A DNA stretch of 64,000 nt from positions 124,001 to 188,000 of the forward strand of contig JABLXZ010000004.1 of the NCBI GenBank assembly GCA_013177935.1, written 5' to 3'. The notes beneath the pieces were generated by a model. That model saw only the letters and a list, made by a program, of their open reading frames with translations, did not search any database and was not told where the DNA came from. The translations under genes and the position numbers were made by a program. Positions 11,433 through 44,600 of this stretch are shown here, piece after piece. Source of the DNA: a candidate division WOR-3 bacterium (GTDB taxonomy: Bacteria; Hydrothermota; Tepidihabitantia; Tepidihabitantales; Tepidihabitantaceae). Numbering within the stretch: the first letter of the stretch is position 1; the number at the start of each line of letters is the position of its first letter.

Positions 11433-12191
11433 GTGAGGAAGTTCTTTTTTACCATCATCCTTATCCCTGCCCTGCTCTTTGCGCGGGGAACAAGCGGCGG
11501 TATGGGGACCTTTGGTCCATCGCTCGCTTTGATTGACTTCACCGATGTCAACCGCTCACTCCGCGACGCCGGTTTCGAGGAACTTTCCTCCCGGCACTGG
11601 ATGTTTGGCGGCGGTGGTTATTTAATTGCCAATCGCACGATGATTGGCGGTGCCGGCTGGGGCGGCACTCAGACATCGGTATCCGAATCTTTGAATGTCG
11701 TCTGCCGGGTTGACTACGGCGGTGGCGAGTTCCGTGCCGGTTATATCGTTCTTGACACCCGGTATCTGCTCATCACGCCCGGAATCGGAATTGGCGGCGG
11801 CGGCTACACTATCAACCTTGAACCGTACAACCAGACCATACCCAGTTTTGACACCCTGCTGCGCAACCCGGGCAGAACTTCAACCATCACCTTTTCCGGT
11901 TTCTGCCTCAACCCGCAACTCGCCATCACCATTCCCATCTCCTTTATCGGTATTGACATCCGCGGTGGCTACAACCTTGGACCATTCACCTCAAAATGGG
12001 CATTTGCCGACCGCGGTGTTCTGAGCCGTGGACCCGAGATGAGTAAAGGTACACCCTGGGTCAGCCTGAATGTGCTCTTTGGTGGCTTCAACCGGGAAAA
12101 AACAAGAACAATCAAAGGAAAGATTGAGTTCAAGGAAGGTGAAGAAGAAAAAGAGCCGGAAAAGGAGCAGGAACCGCAACAAGAGGAGTAG
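11433..12191 (+). CDS. Secreted or outer-membrane protein of unknown function with acidic tail
   Basis: An N-terminal signal peptide (MRKFFFTIILIPALLFA) precedes a glycine-rich body with alternating beta-strand pattern, including MFGGGGYLI and GIGIGGGGYTI. This suggests a small barrel or beta-sandwich exported to the outer membrane or surface. The last 30 residues are highly charged (Glu/Lys/Gln). No family is recognised. The start is GTG 11433, preceded at the right distance by AAAGGAGG (11421-11428). The ATG two bases earlier runs straight into a stop. Confidence 0.7.
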   Translation: MRKFFFTIILIPALLFARGTSGGMGTFGPSLALIDFTDVNRSLRDAGFEELSSRHWMFGGGGYLIANRTMIGGAGWGGTQTSVSESLNVVCRVDYGGGEFRAGYIVLDTRYLLITPGIGIGGGGYTINLEPYNQTIPSFDTLLRNPGRTSTITFSGFCLNPQLAITIPISFIGIDIRGGYNLGPFTSKWAFADRGVLSRGPEMSKGTPWVSLNVLFGGFNREKTRTIKGKIEFKEGEEEKEPEKEQEPQQEE

Positions 12192-12287
12192 AAAGAGAAA
12201 CATCTGTTTCTGACCGAGCGTCATCGTCGGTGTTAACAACACTACATTTCTGACTTTCGATTTCTTTTATCATAGCCATCCCTGCCT

Positions 12288-12366
12288 TTTCATTGCGAGC
12301 CGTTCTTCACGGTCATTTTAAGCAATTCCTTCCCTGTCATTGCGAGCCGAAGGCAAAGCAATCCCA
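12288..12366. repeat. REP-like palindromic repeats
   Basis: Two related units start CATTGCGAGCC at about 12293 and 12339. The second, ATTGCGAGCCGAAGGCAAAGCAAT, folds on itself (ATTGC with GCAAT, GCC with GGC). The element resembles the dispersed CATTGCGAG intergenic repeats seen in many bacterial genomes. Together with the rest of 12192-12480 no convincing gene is visible here. Confidence 0.5.
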
Positions 12367-12711
12367 TTTATTAACATCTTTGCAACACCAATTGGTAGTT
12401 TGATACAAACGAAGTCAGGATTAGAACAGGATGGTCCTTACCTGACCGCAGTGAAGGTATTCACCCTTTCTGACCTGACGACATTGCCGGGAACAGACCG
12501 GGAGATAGAATTCAGGACTGAACCAAAGAGCGGTGCGAAGATTATCAGGTTAGTTGGTAATAAAAGTGCGGATTAGACGGTTTCAGTTAGAACCCTGTTG
12601 ATTATCAATAAGATAGCACCAAAGGGTGCGAGTCCGGCTTATGCGCTATCAGGCTTCCGCACAATCACGCAATGTGCGATGAAAGGGGTGTATAAGACTA
12701 TCCCAGGAATT

Positions 12712-12741
12712 ACCCCCGGACTGTTGGGGGTACGGTTTTTT
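12712..12741 (+). terminator. Intrinsic terminator conserved in both locus copies
   Basis: ACCCCC (12712-12717) pairs with GGGGGT (12726-12731) across an eight-base loop, and T6 follows at 12736-12741. It lies upstream of the promoter at 12805, so it would stop readthrough into the leader. Confidence 0.65.
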
Positions 12742-12804
12742 GTCACTTTTCCTTATCTTTTCGTATATAAATATAGGGTGAGGAGACACACAAGATGAGG
12801 CGCC

Positions 12805-12833
12805 TTGACAGAACAGTTTTTTTGTTGTATATT
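12805..12833 (+). promoter_or_regulatory. Promoter of secreted-protein locus, copy 1
   Basis: TTGACA (12805-12810), 17 bases, TATATT (12828-12833). The same element occurs in copy 2 (TTGACA-N16-TAATAT). Transcription would begin near 12840, giving a leader of about 180 bases. Confidence 0.65.
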
Positions 12834-12839
12834 TTTATA

Positions 12840-13042
12840 GAGTAAAACTGCGATGACGAGCTTACTCTACTCTACTCGTCCTATCTTGTGATTTCCAGTT
12901 TTACAACAAGTCCGGGGAGGTAATTGGTGGCAGGGTGCGCCTCCGGTCCAGAATTGGGCTGGAGGTTCAAATCAATTAATGCGGCAATTAGGGATAAACA
13001 AAGAAAGGAGGTTGAAAAATGAGAAACTTTAAAGCCGCATTA
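12840..13042 (+). promoter_or_regulatory. Structured 5' leader with tandem-repeat loop and start-codon helix, copy 1
   Basis: Three helices are visible. The first pairs GTAAAACTG (12842-12850) with CAGTTTTAC (12896-12904) and nests GACGAG/CTCGTC (12855-12860 with 12875-12880). Its loop holds three TCTAC-type units. The second pairs CCTCCGGTCC (12940-12949) with GGGCTGGAGG (12956-12965). The third pairs TAATGCGGC (12977-12985) with GCCGCATTA (13034-13042) and encloses the AAAGGAGG site and the ATG. Copy 2 keeps all three with compensating changes, which supports real RNA structure. Function is unknown; control of translation is inferred. Confidence 0.65.
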
Positions 13043-13624
13043 GCAATAGTTGCGCTCTGCCTTTGTGTGAGTGCGATAAAAAATCCCGCAGCAGGGGATA
13101 ATAATCCTACTAAAACTGACACTTTTTATTTTATTCGCACAGACTCGGCAGTTATTGAATTGATAGCACCAGCCTATCCGCCGACGCAAGCACCTTCCTT
13201 GGACCCCGAATGGAAGCCGGTTACTATTGACCAACTCCACTCAATGGGAATAATGTCGCCGAGTGAAAATGAGATGATAGCAAAGCAACAGGGGCACTAT
13301 CAGGAGGCTGAAAGTGATGGTGGAACCAAGGAATCGCGATGGTTTGTAGTGGGTACGGGTTCAGGGGGTCTTAAATGGATTCAATCTGGTGCAGGTTCTG
13401 CCCGCCCCTGGTATCTTCCTGGATTAGTTTATGCAAAGACCGAACTTTACAAGGACGGGCAGTATCTCGGTTCAGCTACGATACAGATCGACCCCTGGTG
13501 GTCGGTAAAAATACAAACCTGGCGATACAAATGGACAGATGGCTCAACTCACTTCTTTGAAAATAGAACTACCCATTACTATGGACGGGACTGGATTTAT
13601 GGCTATCTTTCGATAACATGGTGA
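13019..13624 (+). CDS. Secreted protein of unknown function, duplicated-locus copy 1
   Basis: A signal peptide (MRNFKAALAIVALCLCVSA) leads a 201-residue protein with no recognised domain. Its paralogue at 37648-38247 shares the first 16 residues almost exactly and then only a sparse pattern: VT or VTI before an xQLHxxG motif, SPSE/TPSE, a KWVV or RWFVVG strand, and a C-terminal aromatic YW or TW. The mature regions are otherwise very different. A strong AAAGGAGG site precedes the ATG. The next gene starts one base after the stop, so the two are co-translated. Likely exported, perhaps to the surface; role unknown. Confidence 0.75.
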   Translation: MRNFKAALAIVALCLCVSAIKNPAAGDNNPTKTDTFYFIRTDSAVIELIAPAYPPTQAPSLDPEWKPVTIDQLHSMGIMSPSENEMIAKQQGHYQEAESDGGTKESRWFVVGTGSGGLKWIQSGAGSARPWYLPGLVYAKTELYKDGQYLGSATIQIDPWWSVKIQTWRYKWTDGSTHFFENRTTHYYGRDWIYGYLSITW

Positions 13625-14472: not shown

Positions 14473-17400
14473 TTGAAAAGGACTGTCGTTTTGCTGTTTG
14501 CTCTTTTTGTGGTGCTCTTTGCCGGCACCGTGAGCCAGACCGTTGACATCAGCCCAGACCGGCTCGCTTTACACCGGTACGTTGGGTATGATGTTGTCAA
14601 TTTAGCAAGCGGTTTTTTCATCCCCAATCCGGGCAAACCGCTTCTGCCTTACACATCTTTAACCCTGCTCATACCGGCTGATGCCCGTGTCAGCGCCGTT
14701 TCTGCACAGCCGGTTGTCAGCGAAGAAATTCCCGGTAATTACACCATCGTTCCTGCCCAGCCACCGGTTCCCATCTCCGCTCAAACTACGGCCACATTTG
14801 TCGCACCGGACCCTGAGATTTACAGTTCAAACAACCCATTTCCCGACAGGACACTTTTTTCCTATTCAACCGGTAGCGCTGCCGGGTTCAAACTGGTGAA
14901 TGTCATCCTCTGCCCGTTTGAGTACCACCCGGCATCTAAAAAACTGTATCTGCACACCCGAATTCGGGTTGTCGTTAACTACGAAGAGAACGCCTCCACC
15001 CCAATAGCCCTGACTTTTTCGCAGCGCGACCGCATCAACCAGAGTTTGCGTCCGCTGATTTCAAACCCCGAAGACCTGAACCGTTTTGCTCCGCCCCTCA
15101 AAGAGACCGACCAACCCGCGGTGGACTATCTGATAATCACCAGCGCCGAACTTGCCCCGCTGTTTCAGCCTTACATACAGTACAAAACAAGCCGCGGTTT
15201 AAAAACCGAACTGCGAACGGTTGAATGGGTGGTAAATAACTATCCGGGCCGGGATTTAGCCGAAAAAATTCGCAACCTGATAATTGATTACTTTCACTCA
15301 CGGGGCATCTCTTATGTTCTCCTCGCCGGTGACAATCCGCAGGTGCCGTGCCGGCACATTGAGGTCAGCGTGGGAAATGAACACGGTTCAATACCAACCG
15401 ACCTTTACTATGGCGACATTGACTACTCCTGGGACTCCAATCACAACAATCGCTTCGGCGAAATGGAAGATTCAGTTGACCTTTATGCGGATGTATTCGT
15501 AGGTCGGGCATCGGTTGATAGCCGGCAACAGGTTGAGAACTTCATTAACAAAGTCCAGACTTTTGAAAACAACCCTATCCCCGATTATATAAAGCGCAGC
15601 CTTCTACCCTCAGGCTGGCTCTGGCGCTCCCTTAACTATCACGGAAAGTTTGTCAATGACTCCATCGCCGAAATAACACCGCCGGACTGGACCGACCGTA
15701 AAATGGAGAACCCGCCCAGTGCGCTCGTTGTCGCCGACTCGTTTGACCACGGATTTCTGATTTTTGACCCGGCAGGACACGGCAACGAATCCGGTGTTTA
15801 CGACGAAAACGGTAGTGCCATCTACACCACCAGTGTTGCCAGCCGCCAGCAAAACGACCGCCGCTTTTCCATTATCACCTCTCTTGCCTGCAATCCCGGC
15901 AACTTTGAAGCCGAAGACTGCCTTGCCGAAGTTGCCCTGAACTGTCAGGAAGGCGGCGCCATCGCTGTGATGATGAACTCCCGTTACGGCTGGGGCACAC
16001 CGCCGGTGATGGGTCCGTCCGAAAAACTGTGCGTCCGGTTTTATGACTTTCTTTTCAACTATGCCCAATATCAAACCGGACCCTGTCACAACCGCTCCCG
16101 CGAGGAGTATGCGGCAGCGGCAATTTACGACCCACTCTGGCGCTGGTGTATGACCGAATTCAACCTGCTTGGCGACCCAACAATTGACATCTGGACCGCA
16201 CCGCCCCTGAATCTATCTTTAACAGCCCCGGATACAATTCAGACCGGTTCCCAAACCCTCACTGTTACGGTCCGGGAAGGAAGTAATCCGGTTTCAGACG
16301 CAACGGTTACCGCATATAAAGATGGCACCATACTTGCTACCGGTACCACAAACAGTAGCGGGGTCGTAAATTTAGCCATTCATCCCACAACCATCGGACA
16401 ACTCTTAATCACCGCCTGGCGGCACAACAACCTGCCCGACTCAAAAACCATCCCGATAGTACCCGGCGATTTGGAACCGTCGTTCACCTATCAGCGATAT
16501 GAAATTGACGACCAGGGACAACCTCATGAAAATGCCGTGCTCGAACCCGGCGAAACCGTACACCTGAAAATCGTTCTCAGTAACATCGGTTTGGCTGCGG
16601 CGACCAACACCAATTTGACCCTGCGCACCTTAAACCCTAACATCTCCATTCTTGACTCCACCGCCGCAATCGGCACCGTTCCTGCTGGTGAATCTGTCCA
16701 CACTGAAAGCCTGACCATCACTGCCGCACCTGCTACCATTCCCGGCTCTTCAGCAGAAATGCTTGCCTTGATTCGGTCCGACCAGGGCGAGTCCGAGCTC
16801 TGGTTCTCAGTTGAACTGGGCTACGCAGGCAGAACCATCGCTGAAATTGACACGGGCGTTTGTGCCCTGACAATCACCGCCCGGGGAACATTCGGCTATG
16901 ACCCGGAAACAGACCGCAAGGGCAGGGGGTTCCGATATCCAGAATCGGACACCAGCCGCTTGAACATCGCCAGTTTTGCGCTCGGCAACTCCGGCGACTA
17001 CCTTGTTGACCGATTCTACAACCAGACACACAACGGTTTTGACCGGGACTGGCACCTGCAGGAGAGTCTACGCCTTACGCTCCCCATCTGGAGTAGCAAT
17101 GAGGCGTTATTCAGCAGTTTCAGCGACCAGGGGCACCCGAACCGTCGCGGGCTTGTTGTTGACCAGCGGGCACTGGGTTTTAGCAACAGTGAACTGGCAA
17201 ATTCCATCGCTCTGGTATACGACATCTGGAATACCTCTTCTGATACGGTAAACAACCTTTATGCCGGTATTCTTGCCGATTTTGATGTCCTGCCTACCGA
17301 CCGGTTGCACGATATTGCCTTCACCCTGCCCGAACAGAATGCCGCCCTGATGCGCAATGTCAACACACCATTTCCCTGTGTGGGAGTTAAACTGCTTTAT

Positions 17401-17982
17401 CCGCGTAACCCGGCAAATCTAACCTGTATTGACCACAGCCGTTATGTTTACCCCGACTCCGGAATGACCGATGATATGAAGTTTCGCGCCCTTTTTGGAA
17501 ATCTCGGCGTTCAATCGAGCGACCGTCCCTATAACTGGTCGCTTGCGGTCGCCACCGGTCCATTTAACATTCCGCCCAACAATGGCAGACAGCGGCTCGC
17601 CTTTGCCTTTATTGCTGCGGACGACTCCCTGAACTTCTTATCATCCTGTACCGCAGTTCAGAACTGGTTTGACACCGGTGTCGGAGTTGATGGGGACGCA
17701 AAAAACTCCGCTCCACCTTTTTCTTTAAACCTCTCGCTCCGACCGAACCCGATTACCAATCGGGCTCTAATCTCCTATTCCCTGCCTCATACCTCACCGG
17801 TGCGTATTTCGGTAATTGACATCACCGGAAGAAAAATCTCCACCCTCTTTTGTTGCGAAAATCAGTCAGCAGGAACTCACCAATTTCCCTGGCAACCGCG
17901 AAACTTAGTTCCCGGTGTTTACTTCTTAAAACTACAAACCAACGATTCGAGTATCACCGAAAGGTGCTTGATTCTTAGATAA
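14473..17982 (+). CDS. Gingipain-type C25 cysteine protease with C-terminal T9SS-like sorting domain
   Basis: The 1169-residue precursor has a signal peptide (residues 1 to about 20), a propeptide-like region, and a C25 catalytic domain from about 215 to 575. The catalytic pair is visible: His436 in PAGHGNESG and Cys473 in SLACNPGNFE. An Ig-like module (about 580-660) and further beta domains follow. The last 85 residues match the T9SS type A pattern, with LRPNPITNRALISYSLP, VRISVIDITGRKI and LVPGVYFLKL. It is likely an extracellular or surface protease, or a PorU-like sortase relative. Translation starts at TTG with a strong AGGAGG site. Confidence 0.88.
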   Translation: MKRTVVLLFALFVVLFAGTVSQTVDISPDRLALHRYVGYDVVNLASGFFIPNPGKPLLPYTSLTLLIPADARVSAVSAQPVVSEEIPGNYTIVPAQPPVPISAQTTATFVAPDPEIYSSNNPFPDRTLFSYSTGSAAGFKLVNVILCPFEYHPASKKLYLHTRIRVVVNYEENASTPIALTFSQRDRINQSLRPLISNPEDLNRFAPPLKETDQPAVDYLIITSAELAPLFQPYIQYKTSRGLKTELRTVEWVVNNYPGRDLAEKIRNLIIDYFHSRGISYVLLAGDNPQVPCRHIEVSVGNEHGSIPTDLYYGDIDYSWDSNHNNRFGEMEDSVDLYADVFVGRASVDSRQQVENFINKVQTFENNPIPDYIKRSLLPSGWLWRSLNYHGKFVNDSIAEITPPDWTDRKMENPPSALVVADSFDHGFLIFDPAGHGNESGVYDENGSAIYTTSVASRQQNDRRFSIITSLACNPGNFEAEDCLAEVALNCQEGGAIAVMMNSRYGWGTPPVMGPSEKLCVRFYDFLFNYAQYQTGPCHNRSREEYAAAAIYDPLWRWCMTEFNLLGDPTIDIWTAPPLNLSLTAPDTIQTGSQTLTVTVREGSNPVSDATVTAYKDGTILATGTTNSSGVVNLAIHPTTIGQLLITAWRHNNLPDSKTIPIVPGDLEPSFTYQRYEIDDQGQPHENAVLEPGETVHLKIVLSNIGLAAATNTNLTLRTLNPNISILDSTAAIGTVPAGESVHTESLTITAAPATIPGSSAEMLALIRSDQGESELWFSVELGYAGRTIAEIDTGVCALTITARGTFGYDPETDRKGRGFRYPESDTSRLNIASFALGNSGDYLVDRFYNQTHNGFDRDWHLQESLRLTLPIWSSNEALFSSFSDQGHPNRRGLVVDQRALGFSNSELANSIALVYDIWNTSSDTVNNLYAGILADFDVLPTDRLHDIAFTLPEQNAALMRNVNTPFPCVGVKLLYPRNPANLTCIDHSRYVYPDSGMTDDMKFRALFGNLGVQSSDRPYNWSLAVATGPFNIPPNNGRQRLAFAFIAADDSLNFLSSCTAVQNWFDTGVGVDGDAKNSAPPFSLNLSLRPNPITNRALISYSLPHTSPVRISVIDITGRKISTLFCCENQSAGTHQFPWQPRNLVPGVYFLKLQTNDSSITERCLILR

Positions 17983-38247: not shown

Positions 38248-38439
38248 TTTTCAACCTCCTTTCTTTGTTTATCCCTAATTGCCGCATTAATTGATTTGAA
38301 CCTCCAGCCCAATTCTGGACTGGAGGCGCACCCTGCCACCGATAACCTCACCGGATTTGTTGTAAAACCAGAAATCACAGGATAGAACGAGTAGAGTAGA
38401 GTAGAGTAGAGTAGAGTAGGCTCGTCATCATAGTTTTAC
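38224..38439 (-). promoter_or_regulatory. Structured 5' leader with tandem-repeat loop and start-codon helix, copy 2
   Basis: On the minus strand, GTAAAACTA (38439-38431) pairs with TGGTTTTAC (38370-38362). Inside it GACGAG (38426-38421) pairs with CTCGTT (38391-38386), and the loop (38420-38391) holds six five-base TCTAC-type units. CCTCCAGTCC (38326-38317) pairs with GGGCTGGAGG (38310-38301). TAATGCGGC (38289-38281) pairs with GCCGCATTA (38232-38224) across the ribosome site and ATG. The base differences from copy 1 preserve pairing. Confidence 0.65.
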
Positions 38440-38448
38440 GCCACAACA

Positions 38449-38476
38449 ATATTACATCAAAAACCTGTCCTGTCAA
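38449..38476 (-). promoter_or_regulatory. Promoter of secreted-protein locus, copy 2
   Basis: The minus strand reads TTGACA (38476-38471), 16 bases, TAATAT (38454-38449), equivalent in position to the copy 1 promoter. Confidence 0.65.
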
Positions 38477-44130: not shown

Positions 44131-44497
44131 GAAGGCGGGTCGGACGGTCGCTCCTGATTTCAGGAGAGGAAAGTCCGGGCACCGCAGGGCAGGACACTCG
44201 CTAACCGCGAGGCTCCAGTTGGGTGACCGGCTGGAGACGGAGAGTGCCACAGAAACGACACCGCCCTGCACTTTTGATGCAGGGTAAGGGTGAAATAGTG
44301 CGGTAAGAGCGCACTATCCGTTGTGGTGACACAGCGGATGGGTAAACCCTGTCTGGTGCAAGACCAAATTGGGAATCGGACTGGCCCGGTCCAGATGATT
44401 CCCGGGTAGGTCGCTTGAGACGGCGGGCAACCGTGCGTTCCAGATAAATGACCGTCACCCTTTATGGGTACAGAACCCGGCTTACAGACCCGCCTTC
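44131..44497 (+). ncRNA. rnpB: RNase P RNA, bacterial type A
   Basis: The P1 helix pairs GAAGGCGGGTC (44131-44141) with GACCCGCCTTC (44487-44497). The universally conserved GAGGAAAGTCCGGGC (near 44165) and ACAGAACCCGGCTTAC (near 44470) form P4. The cruciform GGTAAGGGTG and AGAGCGCAC segments and a long P12-like arm are in place. At 367 bases it is typical. The RNA cleaves 5' leaders from pre-tRNAs. Confidence 0.97.
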
Positions 44498-44600
44498 AAA
44501 AACTTCTGGTCGCTGCTGCTGAATAACCACCTGGCCAACTGAACAGACAGAATATCCTATTTTCCCTTACCTGATGTTGTCTGAAACTCGCTTCCTGAAT

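Follow-up and report, generated by a model that had tools for sequence, protein, structure and literature searches.

Two short stretches of a 64,000-nt piece of a WOR-3 bacterial genome (hereafter the window), one on each strand, carry a differing number of five-base units ahead of a gene for a secreted protein. What do these units do there: do they shape a folded leader RNA, or are they translated? According to a sequence-only reading, the leaders at 12840-12965 and (minus strand) 38439-38301 form one conserved RNA fold, maintained by compensating base changes and holding the repeat in its apical loop. Both leaders do exist, as a check of the letters confirmed; copy 1 has three units, copy 2 has six, and the pairs quoted for them were read correctly (G12850-C12896, which is A-U in copy 2, T12849-A12897, G12855-C12880 and G12945-U12960). 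On the sequence evidence set out below, the leader nevertheless appears to be better read as a short ORF than as a structured RNA.

The two copies share one layout: sigma-70 promoter, ATG, CTACT tract, a block of about 60 nt, 12-bp hairpin, GGAGG and secreted-protein gene (Table 1). The leader ATG is found about 20 nt past the -10 box, at 12853 in copy 1 and 38428 in copy 2, and the ATG of the secreted-protein gene, equipped with its own Shine-Dalgarno sequence, follows 166 nt and 181 nt past it, respectively. The leader ATG in G000 has no clear Shine-Dalgarno sequence. Altogether the genome (1.96 Mb, 5 contigs) contains seven leader copies. Unit numbers are given throughout as assembled, and assemblies may misstate repeat length.

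Table 1. Features of the two leader copies in the window.
Feature	Position	Strand	Basis or remark
Copy 1, whole unit	12805-13624	+	promoter to secreted-protein gene
Copy 1, promoter TTGACA-17-TATATT	12805..12833	+	consensus scan 11/12; kept in all seven own copies
Copy 1, leader ORF as assembled, MTSLLYSTRPIL, then stop	12853..12891	+	translation; out of conserved-peptide frame
Copy 1, pentanucleotide tract TTACT CTACT CTACT, 3 units	12862..12876	+	sequence
Copy 1, conserved open frame RAYSTLLVLSCDFQFYNKSGEVIGGRVRLRSRIGLEVQIN, then stop	12857..12979	+	phase without start codon
Copy 1, motif codons, NKSGEVIGG	12905..12931	+	profiles A1, A3, A4 across the phylum
Copy 1, 12-bp hairpin, 7 nt past motif	12939..12966	+	folds, pair counts 80/84, position
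Copy 1, Shine-Dalgarno GGAGG of secreted-protein gene	13007..13011	+	sequence
Copy 1, secreted protein, 201 aa, signal peptide MRNFKAALAIVALCLCVSA	13019..13624	+	homologue behind same leader in G010
Copy 2, whole unit	38476-37648	-	parts as in copy 1
Copy 2, promoter TTGACA-17-AATATT	38448..38476	-	sigma-70 type
Copy 2, leader ORF as assembled, MTSLLYSTLLYSTRSIL, then stop	38375..38428	-	translation; out of frame
Copy 2, pentanucleotide tract CTACT x6	38390..38419	-	sequence
Copy 2, conserved open frame RAYSTLLYSTLLVLSCDFWFYNKSGEVIGGRVRLQSRIGLEVQIN, then stop	38287..38424	-	translation
Copy 2, motif NKSGEVIGG	38335..38361	-	peptide profiles
Copy 2, hairpin	38300..38327	-	folds, pair counts
Copy 2, secreted protein, 199 aa	37648..38247	-	signal-peptide gene

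Upstream of the leaders, at 12590-12780 (+) and 38710-38510 (-), lies a separate dispersed element, present at about 17 places in the genome and mostly without a leader. It consists of a terminator-like stem CCCCCGGACTGTTGGGGG with a T-run followed by TTTTGTCAC..GTATAT(A)A, frequently accompanied by TCAC-n-GTGA, and this latter part looks by its sequence like a promoter with an operator; behind several copies of the element a gene starts about 100 nt downstream.

The fold itself did not withstand comparison of the seven copies. Minimum-energy folds of the two window leaders score z -1.19 (copy 1) and -0.21 (copy 2), no better than shuffled sequences, so that a common fold is not borne out, and neither the outer nor the inner stem occurs in them. 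The inner GACGAG/CTCGTC helix has 35/42 cells paired over the seven own copies and is intact in two, the window copies; in the others GACGAG has changed to GACCAG or GACCGA, or its partner CTCGTC to CTCTTT. In the outer helix, rich in A-U and G-U, 52/63 cells are paired. Its pair G12850-C12896 is A-U in three copies, copy 2 among them, and A-C in three others; the helix as a whole exceeds shuffles in copies 1, 2 and 5 and does not clearly do so in four of the seven. Compensating change thus fails for the inner and outer stems, both broken in several own copies, and holds for the hairpin at 12939-12966, where 80/84 cells are paired and one double change converts C-G to A-U. This hairpin is the only part supported as RNA structure. 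Searched against Rfam, the whole window and, with permissive settings, 12190-13060 gave nothing beyond RNase P, a single tRNA and chance matches, in agreement with the earlier remark that no described RNA family fits the leader. A bacterial RNase P class A RNA gene is located at 44132-44500 (+).

A novel structured cis-regulatory RNA, with the repeat in its apical loop and the reading frame incidental, could claim the pairs seen in copies 1 and 2, the outer helix of copies 1, 2 and 5 and the well-preserved third hairpin. Yet the inner stem is lost in five of seven own copies, partly via a silent codon change, and free-energy folding recovers neither it nor the outer stem. Moreover, relatives retain the peptide motif described below despite changed third codon positions, and their hairpins differ in sequence. 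We regard such an RNA as an improbable explanation.

The repeat sits in a short reading frame, just past the ATG, and not at the apex of a conserved RNA fold. That the tract varies in length, as had been proposed, holds true, but an effect through loop size alone does not, since the number of units modulo 3 changes the reading frame. In all seven own copies an open frame (..CDFQFYNKSGEVIGG..) extends between repeat and hairpin; it ends 39-50 nt ahead of the gene in six of them and 1 nt ahead in the seventh. The change of ACG to ACC after the ATG in copies 4-6 breaks the inner stem yet is silent in the ATG frame. The conserved frame of the leaders reads ..N[KPQ]SGEV[IR][AG]G.., and its codons were tested by column shuffling scored on amino acids. 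For the SGEV frame, P was 0.030 among the own copies, 0.009 within the sister genus and 0.001 for all 16 copies together, values which serve as guides and not as exact probabilities, because related copies are not independent. No other forward frame fell below P of 0.84; a reverse frame with the same third positions came to about 0.03, and past the motif, in the hairpin stretch, the same test yielded no signal.

Profiles built from the peptide alone (A1, A3, A4) were used to search one phylum, and from it 40 leaders from 16 genomes were tabulated, with up to seven loci per genome. The profiles reached other genera, other families and one other class. Repeat, hairpin, Shine-Dalgarno sequence and signal peptide were identified after the search, the profiles holding nothing but the peptide, and hairpin, Shine-Dalgarno and signal peptide are laid out in the same way in all leaders so found whose sequence extends far enough. 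Two genomes of the same genus lack the leader. Twelve weak profile matches without the layout (L099, L112, L125, L138, L169, L170, L171, L174, L175, L181, L213 and L215) were discarded. The exact pattern GGTGGCAGGGTGCGMCTCC had two matches among the genome contigs, both in unrelated organisms. Literature searches for the motif and for WOR-3 phase variation turned up nothing relevant.

What stands between start codon and motif differs among relatives. The sister genus (G006, G010, G014) has the layout of the own genome: G006 and G010 carry CTACT x3 to x10 in the frame ..YLNPSGEVRAG.., starting at the equivalent place with GTG in G006 and ATG in G010, and G014 has an ATACT tract and the frame ..FYNQSGEVIGGR followed by a stop. 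Elsewhere we found CTGTT repeats (G015, G009), (CT)n repeats (G063, G029) and poly-C (C9 in G049, C8 in G052). One site is thus occupied by CTACT, CTGTT, ATACT, (CT)n or poly-C, and leaders free of any repeat occur in G039, G048, G052, G056, G058, G061 and G085. Next to the promoters of five sister-genus leaders (L096, L100 and L109 in G010, L097 and L101 in G006), the upstream flanks contain a dispersed repeat, GTCATTCCG..GAGTCGAGGAATC.

Promoter, ATG, repeat and ORF were found in 28 leaders. An ATG in the motif frame is present in 5/28 repeat-bearing leaders vs 10/11 repeat-free ones (Fisher P=4e-5). These figures serve as a contrast; for the repeat-free group an in-frame ATG had been sought, so the comparison was not blind. 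Intact leaders include MIYKKYYRLLNPSGEVTAG.. (G085), MILYPYKLANKAFYKLLNPSGEVIAG.. (G039) and the 10-unit leader of G010. The last belongs to a trio of near-identical leaders with 10, 6 and 8 units, one for each frame. Of the poly-C leaders, those with C8 are in frame, unlike the one with C9; all seven own copies, both window copies included, are out of frame as assembled. If an in-frame peptide were costly or repressive, in-frame copies would be expected to be scarce; the share of 5/28, however, does not differ significantly from one third (binomial P 0.11). Programmed ribosomal frameshifting was rejected as a general rescue: copies occupy both off frames, so that one fixed frameshift could not restore the motif frame.

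The choice of frame decides where translation would stop relative to the hairpin. In 28/28 repeat-bearing copies the stop codon of the motif frame lies at or past the start of the stem, while 39 of the 56 alternative frames end before it. Those that do not are mostly one frame of G010 and the two of G029, a genome in which every frame runs into the stem. The spacing is nearly constant as well: among 23 leaders measured, the stem begins 5-9 nt past the last motif codon in 16 and the Shine-Dalgarno sequence is located 71-95 nt past the motif in 17. Post-motif segments reach z of -2 or below against mononucleotide shuffles in 24/32 cases, and arm sequences vary among genera. With no U-run behind the stem, an intrinsic terminator is ruled out. 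Sequestration of the Shine-Dalgarno sequence by the hairpin was likewise rejected, the change in accessibility being inconsistent, and absent in most own copies.

Further copies likewise precede genes for secreted proteins: a signal-peptide-like hydrophobic segment opens all 26 of the main downstream genes examined. Their products include Peptidase C25 proteins (G049, G052, G085) and a Kelch protein (G000). On the same strand as copy 1 and two genes past it, 14473-17982 (+) also encodes a large Peptidase C25 protein, which carries a Por secretion C-terminal sorting domain. For three of the own genes, a homologue with 37-46% identity follows the leader in G010, and since homologues stand behind the leader in both genera, the association of leader and gene family either predates the split of the genera or was rebuilt.

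Conceivably, the small peptide encoded by the leader has its own role, pheromone- or toxin-like for instance, and is switched on and off by the repeat, the secreted gene being merely downstream. Conservation of the motif and the stop codon often directly after it speak for such a peptide. Its N-terminal part, in contrast, is not conserved and varies from 10 to over 30 residues, and both the signal-peptide gene behind every leader followed far enough and the hairpin at near-constant distance count against it, because a free peptide would need neither. We consider it unlikely.

Within a genome, leader copies are near-identical from the promoter through the first ~45 nt of signal-peptide codons (12838-13065 (+) and 38440-38200 (-) in the window), although the mature proteins diverge. 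The homogenised sequence is specific to the genus, MRNFKAALA.. in the own genus vs MKKASLFRLL.., and this pattern is, by its sequence, what concerted evolution or cassette copying would leave. G006 contains, within a leader cluster, a promoter-only copy (L104, C11:112807-112875) and a decayed leader (L107, C11:114833-114959) without a recognisable secreted gene. Could the frame then be a mere relic in a promoter-leader-signal-peptide cassette that was copied ahead of several genes and regulates nothing? The near-identity ahead of differing mature proteins and the degenerate G006 copies would both be expected of it. It does not account for leaders preceding homologous secreted proteins in two genera, nor for a motif, spacing and hairpin that outlast loss of DNA similarity, nor for the frame kept in intact repeat-free ORFs; we hold this explanation to be very unlikely.

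Our own proposal starts from what the sequences themselves display, namely an ORF with its conserved frame, a single site filled by varied repeats, a pattern of leaders in and out of frame, a hairpin with its spacing and a secreted-protein gene. The element is probably a phase-variable regulatory leader ORF. Transcription would begin just upstream of the ATG that opens the short frame, and the simple repeat right past this ATG (here CTACT) would gain and lose units by slippage, presumably in living populations too, so that the unit number modulo 3 would set the frame of the ribosome. In the motif frame, N-x-S-G-E-V-[IRT]-[AG]-G, the ribosome would be taken up to or through the hairpin; in the remaining frames it would mostly terminate earlier. 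Its arrival at the hairpin, probably with pausing, may then set the expression of the secreted-protein gene. The conserved end of the peptide suggests that the nascent chain itself might pause the ribosome just before the hairpin. A bolder version, for which we would claim somewhat less than an even chance, is that N-P-S-G-E-V-[IRT]-A-G marks a new family of regulatory nascent peptides which acts together with a hairpin at near-fixed distance. Different simple repeats would have made it a stochastic switch repeatedly and independently, so that the secreted-protein set of one genome would be phase-variable through separate leaders. If the switch is real, contingency switches would have evolved convergently within a regulatory ORF, and the leaders would provide a candidate new ribosome-pausing peptide together with a sequence motif for finding more.

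Several known systems share parts of this design. In the Opa proteins of Neisseria, a CTCTT coding repeat lies in the signal-peptide codons of the exported protein itself and switches its frame at many dispersed loci. The leaders resemble it in having a pyrimidine-rich pentanucleotide repeat read as a hydrophobic pentapeptide and a putative frame switch at dispersed loci; unlike in Opa, the repeat is placed in a separate leader ORF and not in signal-peptide codons.

The RAPP/RAGP arrest peptides SecM, ApdA, ApdP and ApcA are encoded upstream of sec/yidC genes (PMC10987492). They share with our leaders an upstream ORF whose peptide is conserved near the C-terminus and which is followed by a stem-loop, and some leaders end in ..RAG. 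No proline follows this RAG, however: in the tabulated leaders [IRT][AG]G is never followed by P, but by R, V, S, G, L, A, N, Q or Y, or by a stop. The genes behind the leaders encode secreted proteins (Peptidase C25, Kelch) and not secretion machinery, several intact leaders have 19-30 residues up to the end of the motif and no signal sequence, and the Shine-Dalgarno sequence lies outside the stem. We rejected identity with these arrest peptides, as both the C-terminal RAPP-like sequence and the secretion-machinery context are missing.

Closest in layout is Pil1 of Streptococcus gallolyticus (PMC3894217), the principle of which our leaders probably follow. The leader peptides of Pil1 and Pil3 mediate attenuation-like phase variation: GCAGA repeats alter the Pil1 leader peptide, ribosomes accordingly cover a terminator hairpin or not, and this terminator needs its six T (PMC3894217). 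S. gallolyticus was the one well-described case of leader-peptide phase variation that we found in the literature. Shared features are a promoter, a short leader ORF with a pentanucleotide repeat, a stem-loop and a ribosome-binding site ahead of genes, which in Pil1 encode surface proteins; in both, repeat number modulo 3 determines whether the leader ends before the stem or in or after it, G029 being excepted here. The hairpin of our leaders, unlike that of Pil1, lacks a U-run and is no intrinsic terminator, and since Shine-Dalgarno accessibility does not change consistently either, the terminator step of Pil1 is not reproduced. Further differences are the conserved C-terminus of the peptide, several repeat kinds, or none, at one place, and up to seven loci per genome ahead of secreted proteins, with an effect on expression that we infer. 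A design of the S. gallolyticus type would here span a phylum, with several kinds of repeat gained at one site.
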